This document shows positions 13,156-32,768 of a stretch of DNA of 32,768 nucleotides, in pieces. The notes beneath the pieces were generated by a model that was given only the letters and a program-made list of their open reading frames with translations, searched no databases and was not told the DNA's origin. This DNA comes from a virus. Within the stretch, counting starts at the first letter, position 1; the number at the start of each line of letters is the position of its first letter. The stretch covers positions 1 to 32,768 of IMG/VR virus record IMGVR_UViG_3300032770_000073; one strand, given 5' to 3'. Position numbers and translations under genes: made by a program.

Positions 13156-13182
13156 CGGGCGGTTGAGGGTTGGGGTTTGGGA

Positions 13183-13216
13183 CTTATGGGGCGAATGGGA
13201 CGAATGGGACGAATGG
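13183..13216. repeat. Nonamer tandem repeat CGAATGGGA (about 3 copies)
   Basis: Exact units at 13192-13200 and 13201-13209, a partial unit to 13216, and a degenerate unit before 13192. On the coding (minus) strand the unit reads TCCCATTCG. Repeats of this kind are common in intergenic regions of Verrucomicrobiota, from memory and not checked. Confidence 0.7.
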
Positions 13217-22584: not shown

Positions 22585-23157
22585 TCAGAAACCATGGCTC
22601 CAACCCAAGACAGTGTGATAGCGGGCCACATCATTTGGCCCACTGCCCTGCCATTTGCCCCAAAGCACGCCGATATTGAACTGGCCGCCGCCGATGTGCC
22701 CGAACTTGGCGAACACGCCCGCGTCGGTTACCACGCTCGCAGCGCCGTTGAAGTTGCCGTTGCCGGAGTAGGCCGTGCCCACTCCCGCAATCGTGACGGG
22801 GATCAATTCCAGGGTCGGGAATTGTGAGGGCAACGGATGGAACGGCATTTGCAAACTCACATTGGCGTTCACCAGGCTGAGTTGGCCCAGCCAATCCGCG
22901 CCGAGGCCCAGCCCGACGTTGACCAGGTCCTGCGGGTTCACGTCGTAAACCACGAAGAGGCCGCCGCCCCATTTGGCCTGGCCTTTGGGCGCATAGGTCG
23001 CATAAGGCTCAATCGCGAAATTGGTAATGGCGCCGATGTCGGCGAGCACCTTGTCAAAAGTTGTCGGCGTCGGTAGGTTGGTCTGCTGACTGAACACTGA
23101 ACACTGAACACTGAACACTGCGACCAGCGCGGCGAGGAATACGTTGATTTTTTTCAT
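22585..23157 (-). CDS. Outer-membrane-barrel-like protein with a repeat in its signal peptide
   Basis: 190 residues from ATG 23157. The signal peptide (MKKINVFLAALVAVFSV...) covers residues 1-~24. The mature part alternates Gly/aromatic strands ('GGGLFVVYDV', 'VNVGLGLGADWLG', 'GGQFNIGVLWGKW') and ends in an aromatic 'VLGWSHGF' with C-terminal Phe, like Gram-negative outer-membrane beta-barrels. Seven-base direct repeats (ACTGAAC on the plus strand) encode residues ~13-23. It is the first gene of the lysis/surface block. A superinfection-exclusion or surface-conversion role is possible but unproven. Confidence 0.6.
   Translation of the reverse strand: MKKINVFLAALVAVFSVQCSVFSQQTNLPTPTTFDKVLADIGAITNFAIEPYATYAPKGQAKWGGGLFVVYDVNPQDLVNVGLGLGADWLGQLSLVNANVSLQMPFHPLPSQFPTLELIPVTIAGVGTAYSGNGNFNGAASVVTDAGVFAKFGHIGGGQFNIGVLWGKWQGSGPNDVARYHTVLGWSHGF
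23089..23120. repeat. 7-bp tandem repeat ACTGAAC x ~4.6 inside a signal-peptide coding region
   Basis: Exact heptamers at 23089-23095, 23096-23102, 23103-23109 and 23110-23116, plus four bases to 23120. Seven is not a multiple of three, so a gain or loss of one unit shifts the reading frame of the outer-membrane-like gene just after its signal peptide. Confidence 0.85.
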
Positions 23158-26731: not shown

Positions 26732-27513
26732 CCGACACCGCTCTTCAAAAATCAAACCCGTCCGTTCCATCTCAAATTACCGGTACCTGGGATGGCGCCC
26801 GCCAATGGCTGAACGCCGCTGGTCTGATGGAGCAGAGTAAACTGTTTTGTCAGGTGATGGCCGGATTCGAGCTGATATCGCTGCACAAAAACGTGACCCA
26901 CGGTGGCGACCATCGATCAAGTTCCCAAAATGGGAACTTGAAAAATGCCAATGAAATTGACGTTTCCCAGAATGGGAAAGGTCTGACCTGGGACGAAATC
27001 CTCGAAAAGGAGACAAACCTATCCACTTCCACAGCCTATCGCTTCATGGACATGGCCAAGGCCGCCGCGCCGCGCCTCAAGAAGATCGTGGCGCTGCGCG
27101 ATTTCGACCCGATGTCCAAGCCGATGAATCTTCTGACCGCGCCGCAGAAAAACGCCCTGGCCACCGGCGTCAAGAAACTCACCGATGGCAAGACGCAGAA
27201 GGATTTCGCCGAGCAGCTCGGGCTGTGGAAAAAGCCGTCCGGCAACGCGAGCCCCACGCCCGGATCGCGCCGCAAACTTTCCATCGGTGAGCAGGCGGAG
27301 CTGCTCAAGACGCTGGCCGTGGAAGATTGGCGGGCCATCGTCGAACTACTTGGCGCCTATCGCGGCAAGTTCACCGTGCTCAAAGATGACACTATCGAGG
27401 CACAGATCGCCGTTCTTGAGCGCCATTTAAAGGCGCGTAAAGCCTGGCTTAATCAGCCCAAAACAAACCGGGTGGCTTCCGCCATCGAGGACCTTTTCGA
27501 CAGCAAATCATGA
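26728..27513 (+). CDS. DUF3102-like DNA-binding protein before the transposase
   Basis: 261 residues, start by ATGA overlap. Residues ~35-110 show 'FCQVMAGFELISLHK', then 'TWDEILEKETNLSTSTAYRFM', the S-x-x-T-A-x-R-x-M signature of DUF3102-like proteins. The C-terminal half is basic and helical. Two TTCCCA-N3-TGGGAA palindromes lie inside its coding sequence (26917-26941 and 26963-26979) and encode the two SQNG tetrapeptides. Its stop overlaps the transposase start. Possibly part of the transposition or partition machinery. Confidence 0.5.
   Translation: MTDTALQKSNPSVPSQITGTWDGARQWLNAAGLMEQSKLFCQVMAGFELISLHKNVTHGGDHRSSSQNGNLKNANEIDVSQNGKGLTWDEILEKETNLSTSTAYRFMDMAKAAAPRLKKIVALRDFDPMSKPMNLLTAPQKNALATGVKKLTDGKTQKDFAEQLGLWKKPSGNASPTPGSRRKLSIGEQAELLKTLAVEDWRAIVELLGAYRGKFTVLKDDTIEAQIAVLERHLKARKAWLNQPKTNRVASAIEDLFDSKS
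26917..26941. repeat. 25-bp perfect palindrome inside a coding region
   Basis: Perfect 11-bp arms around a 3-base centre, core TTCCCA-AAA-TGGGAA. A second, shorter copy of the same core lies 38 bases downstream. Together they could form protein-binding sites or hairpins within the early transcript. Confidence 0.7.
26963..26979. repeat. Second TTCCCA-N3-TGGGAA palindrome
   Basis: Arms TTTCCCA / TGGGAAA (7 bp) with centre GAA. Same core as the palindrome at 26917-26941, also in frame to encode Ser-Gln-Asn-Gly. Confidence 0.6.
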
Positions 27514-29375
27514 ACACATCCATCACGGCCCAATTGCAGTCCCACGAGCTGACCGAATTCCTCCAACTGCCCGTTGAGGTTCGTGCCCAGGTCGAACAAT
27601 GGGACTCCGCGCTGCGCAAGATTTGCAAACCGATCCAGAACAACCTGGCCAAACTGGCGGCCGCCAAGGGCGTATCGCTCCAGACGGCCCGGCGCAAATA
27701 CGACGACTGGCGCCGGCAGGGATGGCGCGGACTGATCAATCGCGCCAAGGTGCCCGAGGATCGCGGCCTCTCACCGGAGTTCATCGAATTCTGGAAGAAG
27801 CTTTGCCAGGAAAACGGGCGCAAATGCAAACCCGCTTACCGGGAATTTCTGCGCCGGTTCAAGGCCGGTGAAATGATTCCCGGCATCGAGCCAGGCACGC
27901 CGCGCCATTCGCTTCCTCCCGGTTTTTCCTACGACAATCTCATTCGCTACAAACCCTCGCAGTTCGAATTGACCGCCGCCCGGATCGGCCGGGGCGCCGC
28001 CGCCGATTTCCGGCCCAAGGTTTTCACCACGCGCAAGGACCTGCGCGTTGGCGAGCGGTTCATCTTCGACGATATGTGGCACGACTTTAAAGTCGTCATG
28101 GTGGGCCAGCGCCGGGCCATGCGCCTGCTCCAGCTCCACGCTCACGACCTTTTCAGCGGCTGCCAGTTTGCCCGAGGAATCAAACCGCGAATGGAAGCGC
28201 CCGACGGCACCAGCATCGGCCTCAACGAAAATGAAATGCTCTTCCTGGTCGCGCATGTCCTCTCCGAGTTCGGTTTTCATCCGGACGGCTGCGTGCTGAT
28301 GGTCGAGCACGGCACGGCTGCGATCCGCGAGGACCTGGAAAAGGTCCTCTTTGACCTCACGGCCGGCAAGGTGCTCGTGGATCGCAGCGGCATCGGTGGC
28401 GCCAGCTCGTTCGCTGGACAATATGCCGGCCGCAGCAAGGGCAATTTCCGGTTCAAGGCCGCTCTGGAATCCCTCGGCAATCTCATCCACAACGAGACGG
28501 CCGCCCTGCTGGATGTTCCCGGCCAGACCGGCAGCAACAGCCGCCTCAACGCGCCCGAGGAATTGGCCGGCCGCGACCGTCACGCCGACGCCTTGCTCAA
28601 GGCAATGGCCGCGTTGCCGCCGGCCCGCATCGCGCAATTGCGTCTGCCGTTTCTGGAAGTCAACTCGGCCAAGTGGCTCGTGGAAGAAATCAACGAGCGC
28701 ATCAACCAGCGCACCGAACACGAGATGGAAGGGTGGGAGGAAGCCGGATTGACGACCATCGATTTCGAAGTGCCCGGCGTTGGCCTGTTGACCGGTTCCA
28801 GGGTGCTCGCGTTGCCCGAGGCAAATCGCCAGGCCGTGCTGGCCGCCGCCACGCCGCTGGCCCGCAAGTTGAGTCCACGGGAAGTATTCGACGCCGGCCG
28901 GGCCGATCTGATCCGTTTCCGGCCAGCGCAGACGGCAATGTTGCTCAAGGAACGCACCGCCCGCGAGGTCAAGGTCGGCACCGACCATCTGATCGAGTTC
29001 GAGGATCAGGATATTTCTCCGGCGCCGCTGCGTTATCTCGCCCATCATTTCAAGCCCGGTGAAAAGTTCGCCGTGGTGGTCAATCCCTTCGCTCCTCAAT
29101 CGGCCCACCTATTCGACGCCGCCGGCCGCTGGATCGGCATGGTGGATGCATGGCAAACAATCAGCCAGACCGATGTCGCCGGCCTGCACCGTCAAATGGG
29201 TGCCGCCGCAAAAATTGAGAACCAGCTTCTCTGTCCGCTCGCCGCCCGTGGCGCCGAGATCACCCGCAAACGGCTCGAAGACTCGCAGCACAACGTGGCT
29301 GTGCTGACCAGTGACGGCGCAGAAAAAACCGAGAAGAAACGCGCGGCCCGCAATGCATTGATGTCGGTGGATTAA
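27510..29375 (+). CDS. MuA-like DDE-type transposase
   Basis: 621 residues, start by ATGA overlap. Residues ~46-78 are a helix-turn-helix 'LAKLAAAKGVSLQTARRKYD' typical of MuA-like N-termini. The catalytic RNase-H-like core starts near 183 ('RFIFDDMWHDF', first acidic Asp187/188). The second strand motif, normally D-N-G, here reads 'VEHGT' with Glu266. The third acidic residue is in 'FKAALESLGNLIHNE' (Glu320 or Glu329). The order before a MuB-like ATPase is diagnostic of Mu-type replicative transposition. The C-terminal ~230 residues form a beta-rich domain, as in MuA domain II, plus a helical tail. The D-E-E reading is unusual; see findings. Confidence 0.85.
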   Translation: MNTSITAQLQSHELTEFLQLPVEVRAQVEQWDSALRKICKPIQNNLAKLAAAKGVSLQTARRKYDDWRRQGWRGLINRAKVPEDRGLSPEFIEFWKKLCQENGRKCKPAYREFLRRFKAGEMIPGIEPGTPRHSLPPGFSYDNLIRYKPSQFELTAARIGRGAAADFRPKVFTTRKDLRVGERFIFDDMWHDFKVVMVGQRRAMRLLQLHAHDLFSGCQFARGIKPRMEAPDGTSIGLNENEMLFLVAHVLSEFGFHPDGCVLMVEHGTAAIREDLEKVLFDLTAGKVLVDRSGIGGASSFAGQYAGRSKGNFRFKAALESLGNLIHNETAALLDVPGQTGSNSRLNAPEELAGRDRHADALLKAMAALPPARIAQLRLPFLEVNSAKWLVEEINERINQRTEHEMEGWEEAGLTTIDFEVPGVGLLTGSRVLALPEANRQAVLAAATPLARKLSPREVFDAGRADLIRFRPAQTAMLLKERTAREVKVGTDHLIEFEDQDISPAPLRYLAHHFKPGEKFAVVVNPFAPQSAHLFDAAGRWIGMVDAWQTISQTDVAGLHRQMGAAAKIENQLLCPLAARGAEITRKRLEDSQHNVAVLTSDGAEKTEKKRAARNALMSVD

Positions 29376-29401: not shown

Positions 29402-30397
29402 ATGTCAGACAACACCACGCAGTCTCTTGTTAAAATATATCCGTGCGATGAAGAATTGCGGGCGCGTCTCCGCGCCATACGCGAATCCGGCGAGCTTTCC
29501 AACGCGAAAATTTGCAAGGGTGCCAGGGTCAATGAATCCATCCTGAGCCAATATCTAAACGACGCCGGCAACGTGTATCCCGGCGACGTGCCAAAACATG
29601 AAGCATTGCTTCGGGCCTGGCTTGAACGTCGGGAAATCGAATCTCTGGCGGGAATTCCCACCATCGCAACCCCGGTCTCGGAACAAATTGCCAGCGCGGC
29701 TCGCATGATCCGCCGGTGCGGCATCATGGGCAAGGGATTAGGCAAGGCGGGCATTGGCAAGACCCGTGGCGCCACGCTGCTTCAGTCTTCGGATGAAAGC
29801 TCTGTGATGGTCGCCGTGTCGCGCGAGACCGGAACGCGCGAGGCCATCCGGTCCACGCTGTTCAAAAAGTTCGGCATTCGAGGGCCGCGCAAACGTATCG
29901 GCAACCGCGCCCGCCTAATGTATTCCGAGCTGACCAAACGCCTACGCGGCTCTGATGTTCTTTTGATTTTTGACCAGGCCCACAAGCTCACGTCTCCGGC
30001 CATTGATTTCCTGGTCGAGTTATGGAACGAAACTCATTCGCCCCAGCTCTGGTTGGGAACCCGCGATTTGCTCGACAAGCTTGAGCGCGACGAGCAATGG
30101 GCCAGCCGCCTGGCGTTCACGTTTGAACTCACGGTTGCCGTTGATAAGGAAGTCAACGAAGTGCGGGATCTGGTGCAGCATCAAATCAGATCGCGCCTGC
30201 CCGAACTCAATGGCGAGATGTCACGCCTTACCAACCTTTGTGAAAAGTTGGCCCTTACCGGCAGCTTCCGCCGGGTGGAAATGCGGCTCACCACGATGCT
30301 TTATTTGAGCCAATCACCGCGCAACAAAGGCAAGAGCTGGACCGACCTGTTTGAAATGTCGGGCGAATTCCTAACCGAAAATGATATGGAGGATTGA
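29402..30397 (+). CDS. MuB-like AAA+ ATPase (transposition target protein)
   Basis: 331 residues with AAGAGG in the leader. Residues 1-~75 contain a cro-like HTH (AKICKGARVNESILSQYL), as in MuB. The AAA+ core has Walker A at 114-121 (GKAGIGKT), Walker B at 186-192 (VLLIFDQ) and a sensor-like LWLGTRD at 216-222. MuB binds target DNA, stimulates MuA and protects the phage from self-insertion. The Walker B is DQ instead of the usual DE. The gene follows the transposase after 26 bp. Confidence 0.8.
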   Translation: MSDNTTQSLVKIYPCDEELRARLRAIRESGELSNAKICKGARVNESILSQYLNDAGNVYPGDVPKHEALLRAWLERREIESLAGIPTIATPVSEQIASAARMIRRCGIMGKGLGKAGIGKTRGATLLQSSDESSVMVAVSRETGTREAIRSTLFKKFGIRGPRKRIGNRARLMYSELTKRLRGSDVLLIFDQAHKLTSPAIDFLVELWNETHSPQLWLGTRDLLDKLERDEQWASRLAFTFELTVAVDKEVNEVRDLVQHQIRSRLPELNGEMSRLTNLCEKLALTGSFRRVEMRLTTMLYLSQSPRNKGKSWTDLFEMSGEFLTENDMED

Positions 30398-31039: not shown

Positions 31040-31315
31040 ATGAGACGCAAACGTAAACCTATAACTGAACGGCAATGGCAGCGAACCATGCACAAGCTTT
31101 GCATGATCCTTTTCGGGGCCATCGCTGAGGATGGTGACCAAGAAGCCGAGCGCTTATTGGAATCTGTCGAACCGGATGGGCACCGGATGGCCGGTTACGC
31201 TCGCTATTGTCGACGTGGTCCATTGGCTCTCTTGAACGCGCCTTCACAGGGGACAATATGCCTGACTCTAAACCCTCAACTCTCAACCCTCAACATCCAT
31301 GATCGCACCACATGA
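31040..31315 (+). CDS. 91-residue early protein, unknown
   Basis: Strong GGAGG Shine-Dalgarno sequence at 31032-31036. The first ~60 residues look folded (QWQRTMHKLCMILFGAIAED, EPDGHRMAGYARYCRRG). The last ~20 residues are encoded by the CAACTCT-type heptamer repeat and read as low complexity (LNPQLSTLNIHD). It overlaps the Gam-like gene by 17 bases. The C-terminal tail is probably a by-product of the repeat. Confidence 0.5.
   Translation: MRRKRKPITERQWQRTMHKLCMILFGAIAEDGDQEAERLLESVEPDGHRMAGYARYCRRGPLALLNAPSQGTICLTLNPQLSTLNIHDRTT
31265..31298 (+). repeat. CAAC-type heptamer repeat in front of the Gam-like gene
   Basis: Units CAACTCT, CAACCCT, CAACATC in tandem immediately before the ATG at 31299, with no Shine-Dalgarno sequence. 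The same motif occurs on the minus strand at 10284-10307, 11234-11258 and 13156-13181, always just before a start codon. Confidence 0.75.
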
Positions 31316-31862
31316 CCAAATCGCCGGCACGTCTGCCGACTTCGCCACCATCGAACGCCAGGTTGCCGCGTACGACCAGGAAAACCAAAACCTCGAACTC
31401 ATGATCGCCGAGCTTGAGCATGATCTTGAGGCGATCAAAAACAAACACCTGCGCGGGCTCAAGAAACAGGCCGGCGTGGTCGCCAATCTTGAGGCGCAAT
31501 TGCACAGCTCCATCGAGAGCGCGCCGGCGCTGTTTAATAAACCGCGCACGATCACCATTCACGGCACCAAGATCGGATTCGTTCCCAGCGTCGGATCAGT
31601 CGCCTGGAATGACGACGACCAGGTCTGCACCCTCATCAAACGCCATTTCAAGGCTCGCGCGGCCGAGTTCATCAAAACCGAGGAGACGCCGAAGAAAGAT
31701 GCCCTACGCTCGCTGAGCGAAGCCGATCTGGCCAAGGTCGGCTGCCATATCGAAGGCGCCGGCGACCACGTGCTGATCAAGCGCGTGGCCGGTGACGTGG
31801 AGAAACTCATCAACAAGCTGATCGACAAACTCGTCAGCTCCATGATCGAAGACGAACAATAA
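31299..31862 (+). CDS. gam: Gam-like DNA end-binding (host-nuclease inhibitor) protein
   Basis: 187 residues. The N-terminal ~80 residues are a long coiled coil ('QENQNLELMIAELEHDLEAI'). From ~83 the sequence 'RTITIHGTKIGFVPS', then 'DDDQVCTLIKRHFKAR', then 'SEADLAKVGCHIEGAGDHVLI' follows the Mu Gam pattern. Gam binds DNA ends and blocks exonucleases during transposition, like Ku. Position downstream of MuB-like genes fits Mu. The ATG has no Shine-Dalgarno sequence; a heptamer repeat lies in its place. Confidence 0.75.
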   Translation: MIAPHDQIAGTSADFATIERQVAAYDQENQNLELMIAELEHDLEAIKNKHLRGLKKQAGVVANLEAQLHSSIESAPALFNKPRTITIHGTKIGFVPSVGSVAWNDDDQVCTLIKRHFKARAAEFIKTEETPKKDALRSLSEADLAKVGCHIEGAGDHVLIKRVAGDVEKLINKLIDKLVSSMIEDEQ

Positions 31863-31894: not shown

Positions 31895-32248
31895 ATGAAA
31901 AAAACACACTACCGACAAGGCGACGTGCTCATCGAGTGCATCGAAACCATACCCACCGAGGCCGTTAAACAGAAGCGCTCACGTCGCATCATCCTGGCGC
32001 ACGGAGAAGTCACCGGTCATCACCATTCGTTGGAGACTTCCGATCCGGCCGACTGGTGGAAGGAAGGCGAGATTTCTTTTGCCAATGAAAAGCCCAGCAC
32101 CCTGGCTGGGGCGCTTTTTCTCGCGCTGCCTGACGGAGGCGCCGTCATCCACCAGGAACACGGAAAGATCGAATTGCCGGCCGGCAATTATCGGGTCACG
32201 CGCCAGCGTGAGTATTCACCGGAAGCCATCCGCAACGTCGCCGACTAA
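31895..32248 (+). CDS. Conserved phage protein with 'HGEVTGHHH' motif
   Basis: 117 residues. Features visible: 'YRQGDVLIECIETIP', 'IILAHGEVTGHHHSLE', 'GAVIHQEHGKIELPAGNYRV' and the end 'QREYSPEAIRNVAD'. This combination recurs in many phages and mobile elements, where the function is not known. The several His residues suggest metal binding. Its stop is directly followed by the ATG of the repeat-array gene. Confidence 0.6.
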   Translation: MKKTHYRQGDVLIECIETIPTEAVKQKRSRRIILAHGEVTGHHHSLETSDPADWWKEGEISFANEKPSTLAGALFLALPDGGAVIHQEHGKIELPAGNYRVTRQREYSPEAIRNVAD

Positions 32249-32768
32249 ATGAAAACACCATCGGAGGAACAACGCTTCGCCGAAGCCTGTAATTACCCTG
32301 GCACGCTCGACGTGCCGGCGGTAACCAGGCACCTGGAAGAATATCTCAAAGCTCTTGGCGTCACCCGCAAAATCATTCGGCTAGAGGCCGGTTGGGAGAC
32401 GGAAGACCATCCACCTCTCCAGAAGGCGGTCGATTGGGTCTTGACGGATTTCGCGAAGCGAAATCCGTCCACCGCCCGCGACGCCCGCGCCGCCCGCGCC
32501 GCCCTCGACGCCCGCGACGCCCTCGACGCCCGCGACGCCCGCGACGCCCGCGACGCCCGCGCCGCCCGCGCCGCCCTCGACGCCCGCGACGCCCGCGCCG
32601 CCCGCGACGCCCGCGACGCCCTCGACGCCCGCGACGCCCGCGACGCCCGCGACGCCCTCGACGCCCGCGACGCCCGCGCCGCCCGCGACGCCCTCGACGC
32701 CCGCGACGCCCGCGACGCCCTCGACGCCCGCGCCGCCCGCGCCGCCCTCGACGCCCGCGACGCCCGCG
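32249..32768 (+). CDS. Gene with A-[RL]-[DA] repeat array, runs off the right edge
   Basis: ATG at 32249 directly follows the previous TAA. The first ~75 residues are a normal-looking domain ('VPAVTRHLEEYLKALGV', 'LEAGWETEDHPPLQKAV', 'LTDFAKRNPST'). From 32474 to the window end the reading is tandem tripeptides Ala-[Arg/Leu]-[Asp/Ala], about 33 units, still open. Every unit is GCC-C[G/T]C-G[A/C]C. This type of Ala/Arg/Asp-rich tail is known in some phage proteins, from memory, but the two-base binary variation is striking. The product would be one long charged helix or solenoid. Confidence 0.7.
   Translation, partial: MKTPSEEQRFAEACNYPGTLDVPAVTRHLEEYLKALGVTRKIIRLEAGWETEDHPPLQKAVDWVLTDFAKRNPSTARDARAARAALDARDALDARDARDARDARAARAALDARDARAARDARDALDARDARDARDALDARDARAARDALDARDARDALDARAARAALDARDAR
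32443..32469. repeat. Perfect 12-bp hairpin at the base of the repeat array
   Basis: Arms 32443-32454 and 32458-32469 (GACGGATTTCGC / GCGAAATCCGTC) with loop GAA. It lies in the coding frame (LTDFAKRNPS) four bases before the first repeat unit. Confidence 0.85.
32474..32768 (+). repeat. 9-bp tandem array GCC-C[GT]C-G[AC]C, ~33 units, open at window end
   Basis: By my count 16 ARD, 8 ARA and 8 ALD units; ALA never occurs. Three times two ARA units are followed by ALD. The regularity suggests recent duplication of larger blocks, with point changes limited to two positions. Copy number is likely variable. Confidence 0.9.

Follow-up and report, generated by a model that had tools for sequence, protein, structure and literature searches.

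The window analysed here, a stretch of viral DNA of 32,768 nucleotides, ends inside an open reading frame whose last 295 bases form a tandem array of 9-bp units. The locus raises the question of what kind of protein carries such an array, and why its units are not all alike. The open reading frame lies on the plus strand at 32249–32768 (called as 32249–32767) and runs off the contig on its 3′ side. It begins with a 75-residue N-terminal domain (32249–32473, plus strand), defined by alignments with relatives and by our own HMM, followed by a hypervariable A-[RL]-[DA] array (32474–32768, plus strand) of 32 full units and 7 further bases.

TRF placed a 9-bp array at 32473–32768, with 32.9 copies and a score of 480. 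Counted in frame from 32474, the array consists of 16 units of GCCCGCGAC (ARD), 8 of GCCCGCGCC (ARA), and 8 of GCCCTCGAC (ALD). Both results agree with the unit length and the counts given in the initial annotation of this DNA. Within the unit, variation was confined to bases 5 and 8 (G/T and A/C, respectively), and either change replaces an amino acid. The earlier statement that only two bases vary holds for the window; it does not hold for the relatives, whose units also carry S, H, I, Q, M, G, and V at the variable position. Similarly, ALA was indeed missing from the 32 units of the window, for which the chance under independence is ~0.13, i.e., (1 − 1/16)^32, but 160 ALA units were tallied in 46 arrays of relatives, and ALA as a forbidden unit was therefore ruled out. 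The string ARA-ARA-ALD, which had been taken as a sign of nested duplications, occurs three times in the window array. Across 36 tripeptide arrays, however, unit order was nearly uncorrelated, and nested duplications imprinting the unit order were ruled out.

A perfect 12-bp inverted repeat with a 3-base loop (GACGGATTTCGC/GCGAAATCCGTC) is present at 32443–32469, a few bases 5′ of the array. It was considered as a conserved start of recombination and rejected: only one relative (L056) has it, and there it is shortened; in most relatives no long stem is present. Other short tandem repeats of the window are a 7-bp ACTGAAC repeat (4.6 copies, 23089–23120) and a 9-bp TGGGACGAA repeat (4.3 copies, 13178–13216).

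Architecture and neighbours of the array protein

The closest relative found (L003) is 52% identical to the window protein in the best segment. It shares the N-terminal domain, which is followed by an array of ~66 units and then by a C-terminal part of 226 residues that matches Pfam DUF6745 (PF20530) with E = 2.1e-43 and 148.5 bits (cut-off 27). For another relative, L006, the score was 151.7 bits with the same cut-off. The whole protein was found in ~50 related viral loci (L003, L006, L110, L123, L130, and L133 among them) and consists of an N-terminal domain of ~75 residues, an array of 8–67 units, and a C-terminal DUF6745. The N-terminal domain has the motif ACNYPGxLD...YLxALGVxR...GWxxxxxPxL, and that of the window had no Pfam or PHROG match. 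With our own HMMs, the N-terminal domain was detected in ~35 viral loci and the C-terminal domain in more; a search for the former in genome contigs, annotated phages, and plasmids gave no match. Sixteen open reading frames had the N-terminal domain only, and every one of them runs off its DNA; all the remaining ones reach DUF6745.

A direct scan of viral contigs for A-x-x arrays gave 103 stretches. A second sample was picked by a DUF6745 motif, blind to arrays. Setting aside L158 and L159, both of which start at or near the end of the array, an array was present in every locus of this sample that had upstream DNA. Hence, the array belongs to the protein as a constant part, and its presence in the window is no accident. 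The window has all the three features of the subfamily (the N-terminal domain, an in-frame A-x-x array, and the GEVTGH gene upstream), and by comparison with the relatives its gene should continue into DUF6745 beyond the contig end. The initial annotation was correct in joining the array to an N-terminal domain, homologues of which keep the same kind of array and not unrelated tails. It did not mention that the contig end truncates the gene. The array is not the tail of the protein, since in relatives it links the N-terminal domain to DUF6745; a tail peculiar to the window was likewise ruled out, the array being internal and common to the relatives.

The +2 frame, read as (PRR)n, and one minus-strand frame pass through the window array without any amino acid change. 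Were such a frame the coding one, the variable bases would be silent and the variation simply neutral. We find this scarcely credible, as frame 0 joins conserved domains at both sides in all complete loci. Moreover, frame-0 third bases differ between arrays while A-[R/hydrophobic]-[D/A] stays, and the +2 reading varies by array.

DUF6745 is a named Pfam family, of which no mention was found in the literature searched; a literature search for phage tripeptide or tetrapeptide repeats also gave no description of the array module. The family includes gp174 of Microcystis phage Ma-LMM01 and gp38 of the Mycobacterium abscessus prophage prophiGD102-1. It shares with the relatives of the window the C-terminal domain (E ~1e-44) and with the window the GEVTGH neighbour gene. 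Like the window protein, gp38 also has an array, though of a tetrapeptide type, whereas the Ma-LMM01 protein and most chromosomal members seen are without one. DUF6745 genes without arrays in L040, L148 (Deinococcus), L145, and L146 (Streptomyces plasmids) adjoin genes of the STM4011–STM4015 family, a set of radical SAM proteins, a hydrolase, and STM4014/STM4015 proteins, for which a literature search gave no function.

The array gene follows directly upon the GEVTGH partner gene (31895–32248, plus strand; phrog_27831), whose stop codon abuts its start codon. The partner protein has conserved RQGDV, GEVTGHxH, and HxEH motifs, and because of the conserved histidines we suggest that it is a metal-binding protein. 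In 30 out of 35 loci with the N-terminal domain, some of which represent the same phage, the partner gene lies −1 to 30 nt upstream of the N-domain gene; in the other five it is either downstream (two loci) or was not found (three loci, one of them without upstream DNA). It also adjoins DUF6745 genes in Actinobacteria, Deinococcus, phage Ma-LMM01, and a Mycobacterium prophage.

Upstream of the partner gene, all on the plus strand, are a Mu Gam-like gene (31299–31862; PF07352, E = 8.4e-8; phrog_491, E = 6.4e-12), a gene for a MuB-like AAA ATPase, a DNA transposition protein (29402–30397; phrog_296, E = 8e-28), and one for a MuA-like transposase (27510–29375; phrog_310, E = 7.9e-15). The transposable-phage context proposed earlier does not extend to the other array loci: no match to these genes was found in their flanks, which are limited (phmmer, E ≤ 1e-4). 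Hence, the module has no fixed link to transposable phages. It may be noted that the window also has an esterase/lipase-like phage gene (21458–22516, minus strand; phrog_21992, E = 2e-16), close to those for the terminase and the portal.

In other DUF6745 proteins, the array is built of tetrapeptides, namely NAT[LRDY] (L007), [SN]Q[VM][GWER] (L014), SSL[GREW] (L038), and [DG]QL[GRW] (L039, the prophage protein gp38). A scan for tetrapeptide patterns gave 118 stretches. By HMM, 72 open reading frames of this class include DUF6745, and most of the rest are truncated ahead of it. No relation was detected between the N-terminal domains of the two classes (hhalign probability 0.1%), the tripeptide class having one of its own. 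Matches to Pfam Plasmodium_HRP, PDB chain 9e5c_0q, and PADLOC (L014 array) were discarded as being due to low complexity. The array module is present in well over a hundred phage contigs, the protein being widespread but unstudied.

Turnover of array units

The number of units was found to differ between genomes that are otherwise nearly identical. Relatives L123 and L130 are 99.3–99.5% identical, and their arrays differ by exactly 19 units, the leftmost 24 units and the rightmost 18 being shared. A five-unit (45-bp) stretch that is repeated marks the borders of the difference. In the tetrapeptide class, the gp38 locus L039 (complete prophage record MW584211) and L236 show no difference in the 240 bp preceding the array or in the 3,046 bp following it; the arrays have 47 and 20 repeat blocks, respectively, in different order. 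The flanks of L272 match those of L039 at 240/240 and 554/555 positions, and its array has 63 repeat blocks. From their IMG/VR record numbers, we take L170, L236, and L272 to be isolate genomes. When four loci with 90–94% flank identity (L047, L060, L113, and L118) were compared, their array orders were about as similar as those of shuffled arrays. These sequence comparisons show units being gained, lost, and reordered in frame, much faster than the flanking gene changes. A change of unit number without a frameshift, as foreseen in the initial annotation, was thus observed in relatives; for the phage of the window itself, no further isolate was found. Array turnover beside kilobases of identical flank offers a ready natural experiment.

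The array loci are mostly metagenome contigs, and short-read assembly could in principle produce the array differences, through collapsed repeats or chimeric joins. Many contigs, like that of the window at its 3′ end, stop inside the array; the few differences between L080 and L108 and between L042 and L048 all lie within ~55 bases of a contig end; and a repeat bounds the L123/L130 difference, as described above. Such an artefact is nevertheless extremely unlikely. Complete arrays of 8–67 units occur in many independent contigs as well as in the complete prophage record of L039, collapse shortens an array and could not readily make the 63 near-shuffled units of L272 from the 47 of L039, and the lack of silent variation described below would be left unexplained. 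For some contigs both ends were inside the array (e.g., 3300044822_000062, 3300031576_000162, and 3300049733_000051 and, in the second class, 3300032897_000003 and 3300046813_000129), as would be expected of a circular or circularly permuted genome in which nothing but the array resists assembly. The arrays account for many broken phage contigs, and they would mislead strain comparison and gene annotation.

Replacing and silent variation among units

Variation was analyzed in 36 independent tripeptide arrays comprising 1,257 units. Departures were defined as codons differing from the commonest residue of the array at the two variable positions, synonymous departures being silent. There were 1,013 (529 + 484) replacing departures compared to 15 silent ones, a ratio of 67.5, and 26 out of 36 arrays had no synonymous difference at all. 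The scaffold of the unit is constant, with one or two codon positions mixed (Arg vs. hydrophobic; Asp vs. Ala). Silent third bases were uniform inside each array and different between arrays, so that seven codon dialects could be distinguished. The hydrophobic partner of Arg is Ile (ATA) where Arg is AGA, and Leu where Arg is CGC, CGG, or CGT. Because the Arg/hydrophobic pair follows the codon dialect of the array, the mixed alphabet seems to have had more than one origin, with a single base separating the alternatives each time. For the tetrapeptide (Gln-Leu/Val) class, 2,486 replacing and 126 silent departures were counted (126 arrays, 2,499 units). The two classes differ in unit type and share the same evolutionary pattern.

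As nearly every difference between units replaces an amino acid, it is suggested that selection maintains the variation itself. Unit turnover was simulated, giving a direction and no fitted rate: the ratio of replacing to silent departures was 0.10–0.30 if variation was neutral within the allowed alphabet and ~1–5 under selection on composition, as against the observed 67.5. A ratio as high as the observed one additionally calls for turnover well in excess of the mutation rate. Differences that are almost exclusively amino acid-changing amid codon-uniform repeats provide a measurable signature of selection for heterogeneity.

Slippage at the DNA level expands tandem repeats, and both the length and the order of the arrays vary, as would suit a neutral low-complexity expansion with no role in the protein. 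In view of the ratio of 67.5 against the neutral simulations, we consider this very unlikely. Furthermore, Ala is kept and Arg/hydrophobic kept mixed across the codon dialects, and the array was present in every relative with upstream DNA in the sample chosen independently of arrays. Had heterogeneity served to stabilize the DNA and nothing else, silent differences would have sufficed equally well, yet they are nearly absent.

Alternatively, a dedicated mechanism might alter particular bases of the unit, the amino acid-only variation then reflecting mutation and not selection. In each unit, the variation affects one or two codons only and spares third bases, which would agree with such targeted mutagenesis. 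We regard it as improbable, because the variable bases differ by unit type (G/T, A/C, A/G, and three at one site) so that no single base-specific mutator fits, and because reshuffling and the gain or loss of units were seen directly. In the variable proteins of diversity-generating retroelements, a constant scaffold carries selected variable positions, and almost all variation is amino acid-changing. The arrays are similar in their constant scaffold and in varying almost only by amino acid-changing differences. They differ in that the changes are not adenine-specific (other changes than those of the window are found elsewhere) and the units are tandem. Selection acting on reshuffled units fits the array pattern, as far as can be judged from sequence.

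A second comparison is provided by NeuO, the polysialic acid O-acetyltransferase of prophage CUS-3 (PMC3046976). NeuO has uniform N-terminal RLKTQDS heptads from 7-bp units, the copy number of which varies between isolates; repeat length tunes its activity, and frameshift switches the gene on or off (PMC3046976). Like NeuO, the proteins studied here have an in-frame coding tandem repeat of variable copy number and can be prophage-encoded. In contrast, their units, of 9 or 12 bp, always preserve the reading frame, lie inside the protein, and vary at fixed positions, and there is no sequence relation to NeuO. Arrays of uniform units were not the rule here: nearly every array is mixed at fixed positions of the unit. 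Length-variable coding repeats are already known from prophage proteins, but as uniform repeats.

Predicted structure and possible role of the array

AlphaFold2 predicted one continuous helix for residues 73–172 of the window protein, with block means of 85–98 pLDDT; for Ala-rich repeats, such a prediction is weak evidence. For L110, a relative with a short array, the DUF6745 part was well predicted (mean pLDDT 83.8). Foldseek gave no match at E ≤ 0.001 against PDB, and DUF6745 proteins only against BFVD at the same threshold. The array is thus predicted to be one long, roughly charge-neutral helix of ~4–30 nm for 8–67 units. A rigid helix may not be general, as Ala-rich sequence is easily predicted to be helical and the Gln-Leu class contains Gly. 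The proposal of a length-variable helical spacer gains support from the predicted single helix together with the differences in unit number among relatives, and the refuting outcome named beforehand (unrelated tails behind the same N-terminal domain, without variation in copy number) was not what the relatives showed. On the other hand, "charged filament" was too strong a description, as the mean net charge per unit is close to zero (−0.02).

Taken as a whole, the explanation we favor would be as follows. The window encodes the first half of a phage protein, directly after the GEVTGH partner gene; the protein is made up of the N-terminal domain, a hypervariable array predicted to be helical and, past the contig end, probably DUF6745. 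Recombination or slippage between units would yield new versions of the array, and selection would keep the alphabet mixed. Least certain of all, the array would be an arm that joins and spaces the end domains and presents a changeable surface to a host or phage partner protein. We consider the chances of this explanation (a three-part protein, reshuffled units, a selected mixed alphabet, and a predicted helical arm) to be about evenly balanced.

It is a distinct possibility, though short of an even one, that the array is an inert spacer of tunable length. Its length and overall composition (helical, soluble, charge-balanced) would then be all that counts, order being irrelevant and nothing being bound. 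The predicted continuous helix, the near-zero net charge, the nearly uncorrelated order, and the wide range of lengths with a conserved domain at either side all agree with this. An inert spacer hardly explains, however, why nearly every array retains a mixture of chemically different residues at one fixed position, Trp among them in the second class, and it offers no ready reason for two unit lengths in the same protein family. Near-random unit order does not in itself tell a diversified surface and an inert spacer apart. A bolder version of the favored explanation, which we hold as a tentative and rather doubtful suggestion, is that the array is a phage-borne repertoire generator, in which fast in-frame reshuffling of units and selection for a chemically mixed alphabet would give ever-new helical binding surfaces. 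If true, an outcome like that of diversity-generating retroelements would be reached by tandem-repeat recombination, without a reverse transcriptase.

The array habit extends beyond DUF6745 proteins. Array-like repeats (A-[RL]-[DA]-like or [SY]A-rich) without DUF6745 were seen in L114, L140, L139, L144, L128, L065, L089, and L120. A second open reading frame of L007 (3748–4485; phrog_13065 and phrog_3416) also represents an array family without DUF6745, and these families have an N-terminal motif like LLSGAH...CxMEA. Several short open reading frames with [NSD]QV[WGR] repeats, again without DUF6745, were found in viral contigs of 117–158 kb (L185, L230, L237, L248, L174, and L209), where the repeats are preceded by EPS-rich sequence.
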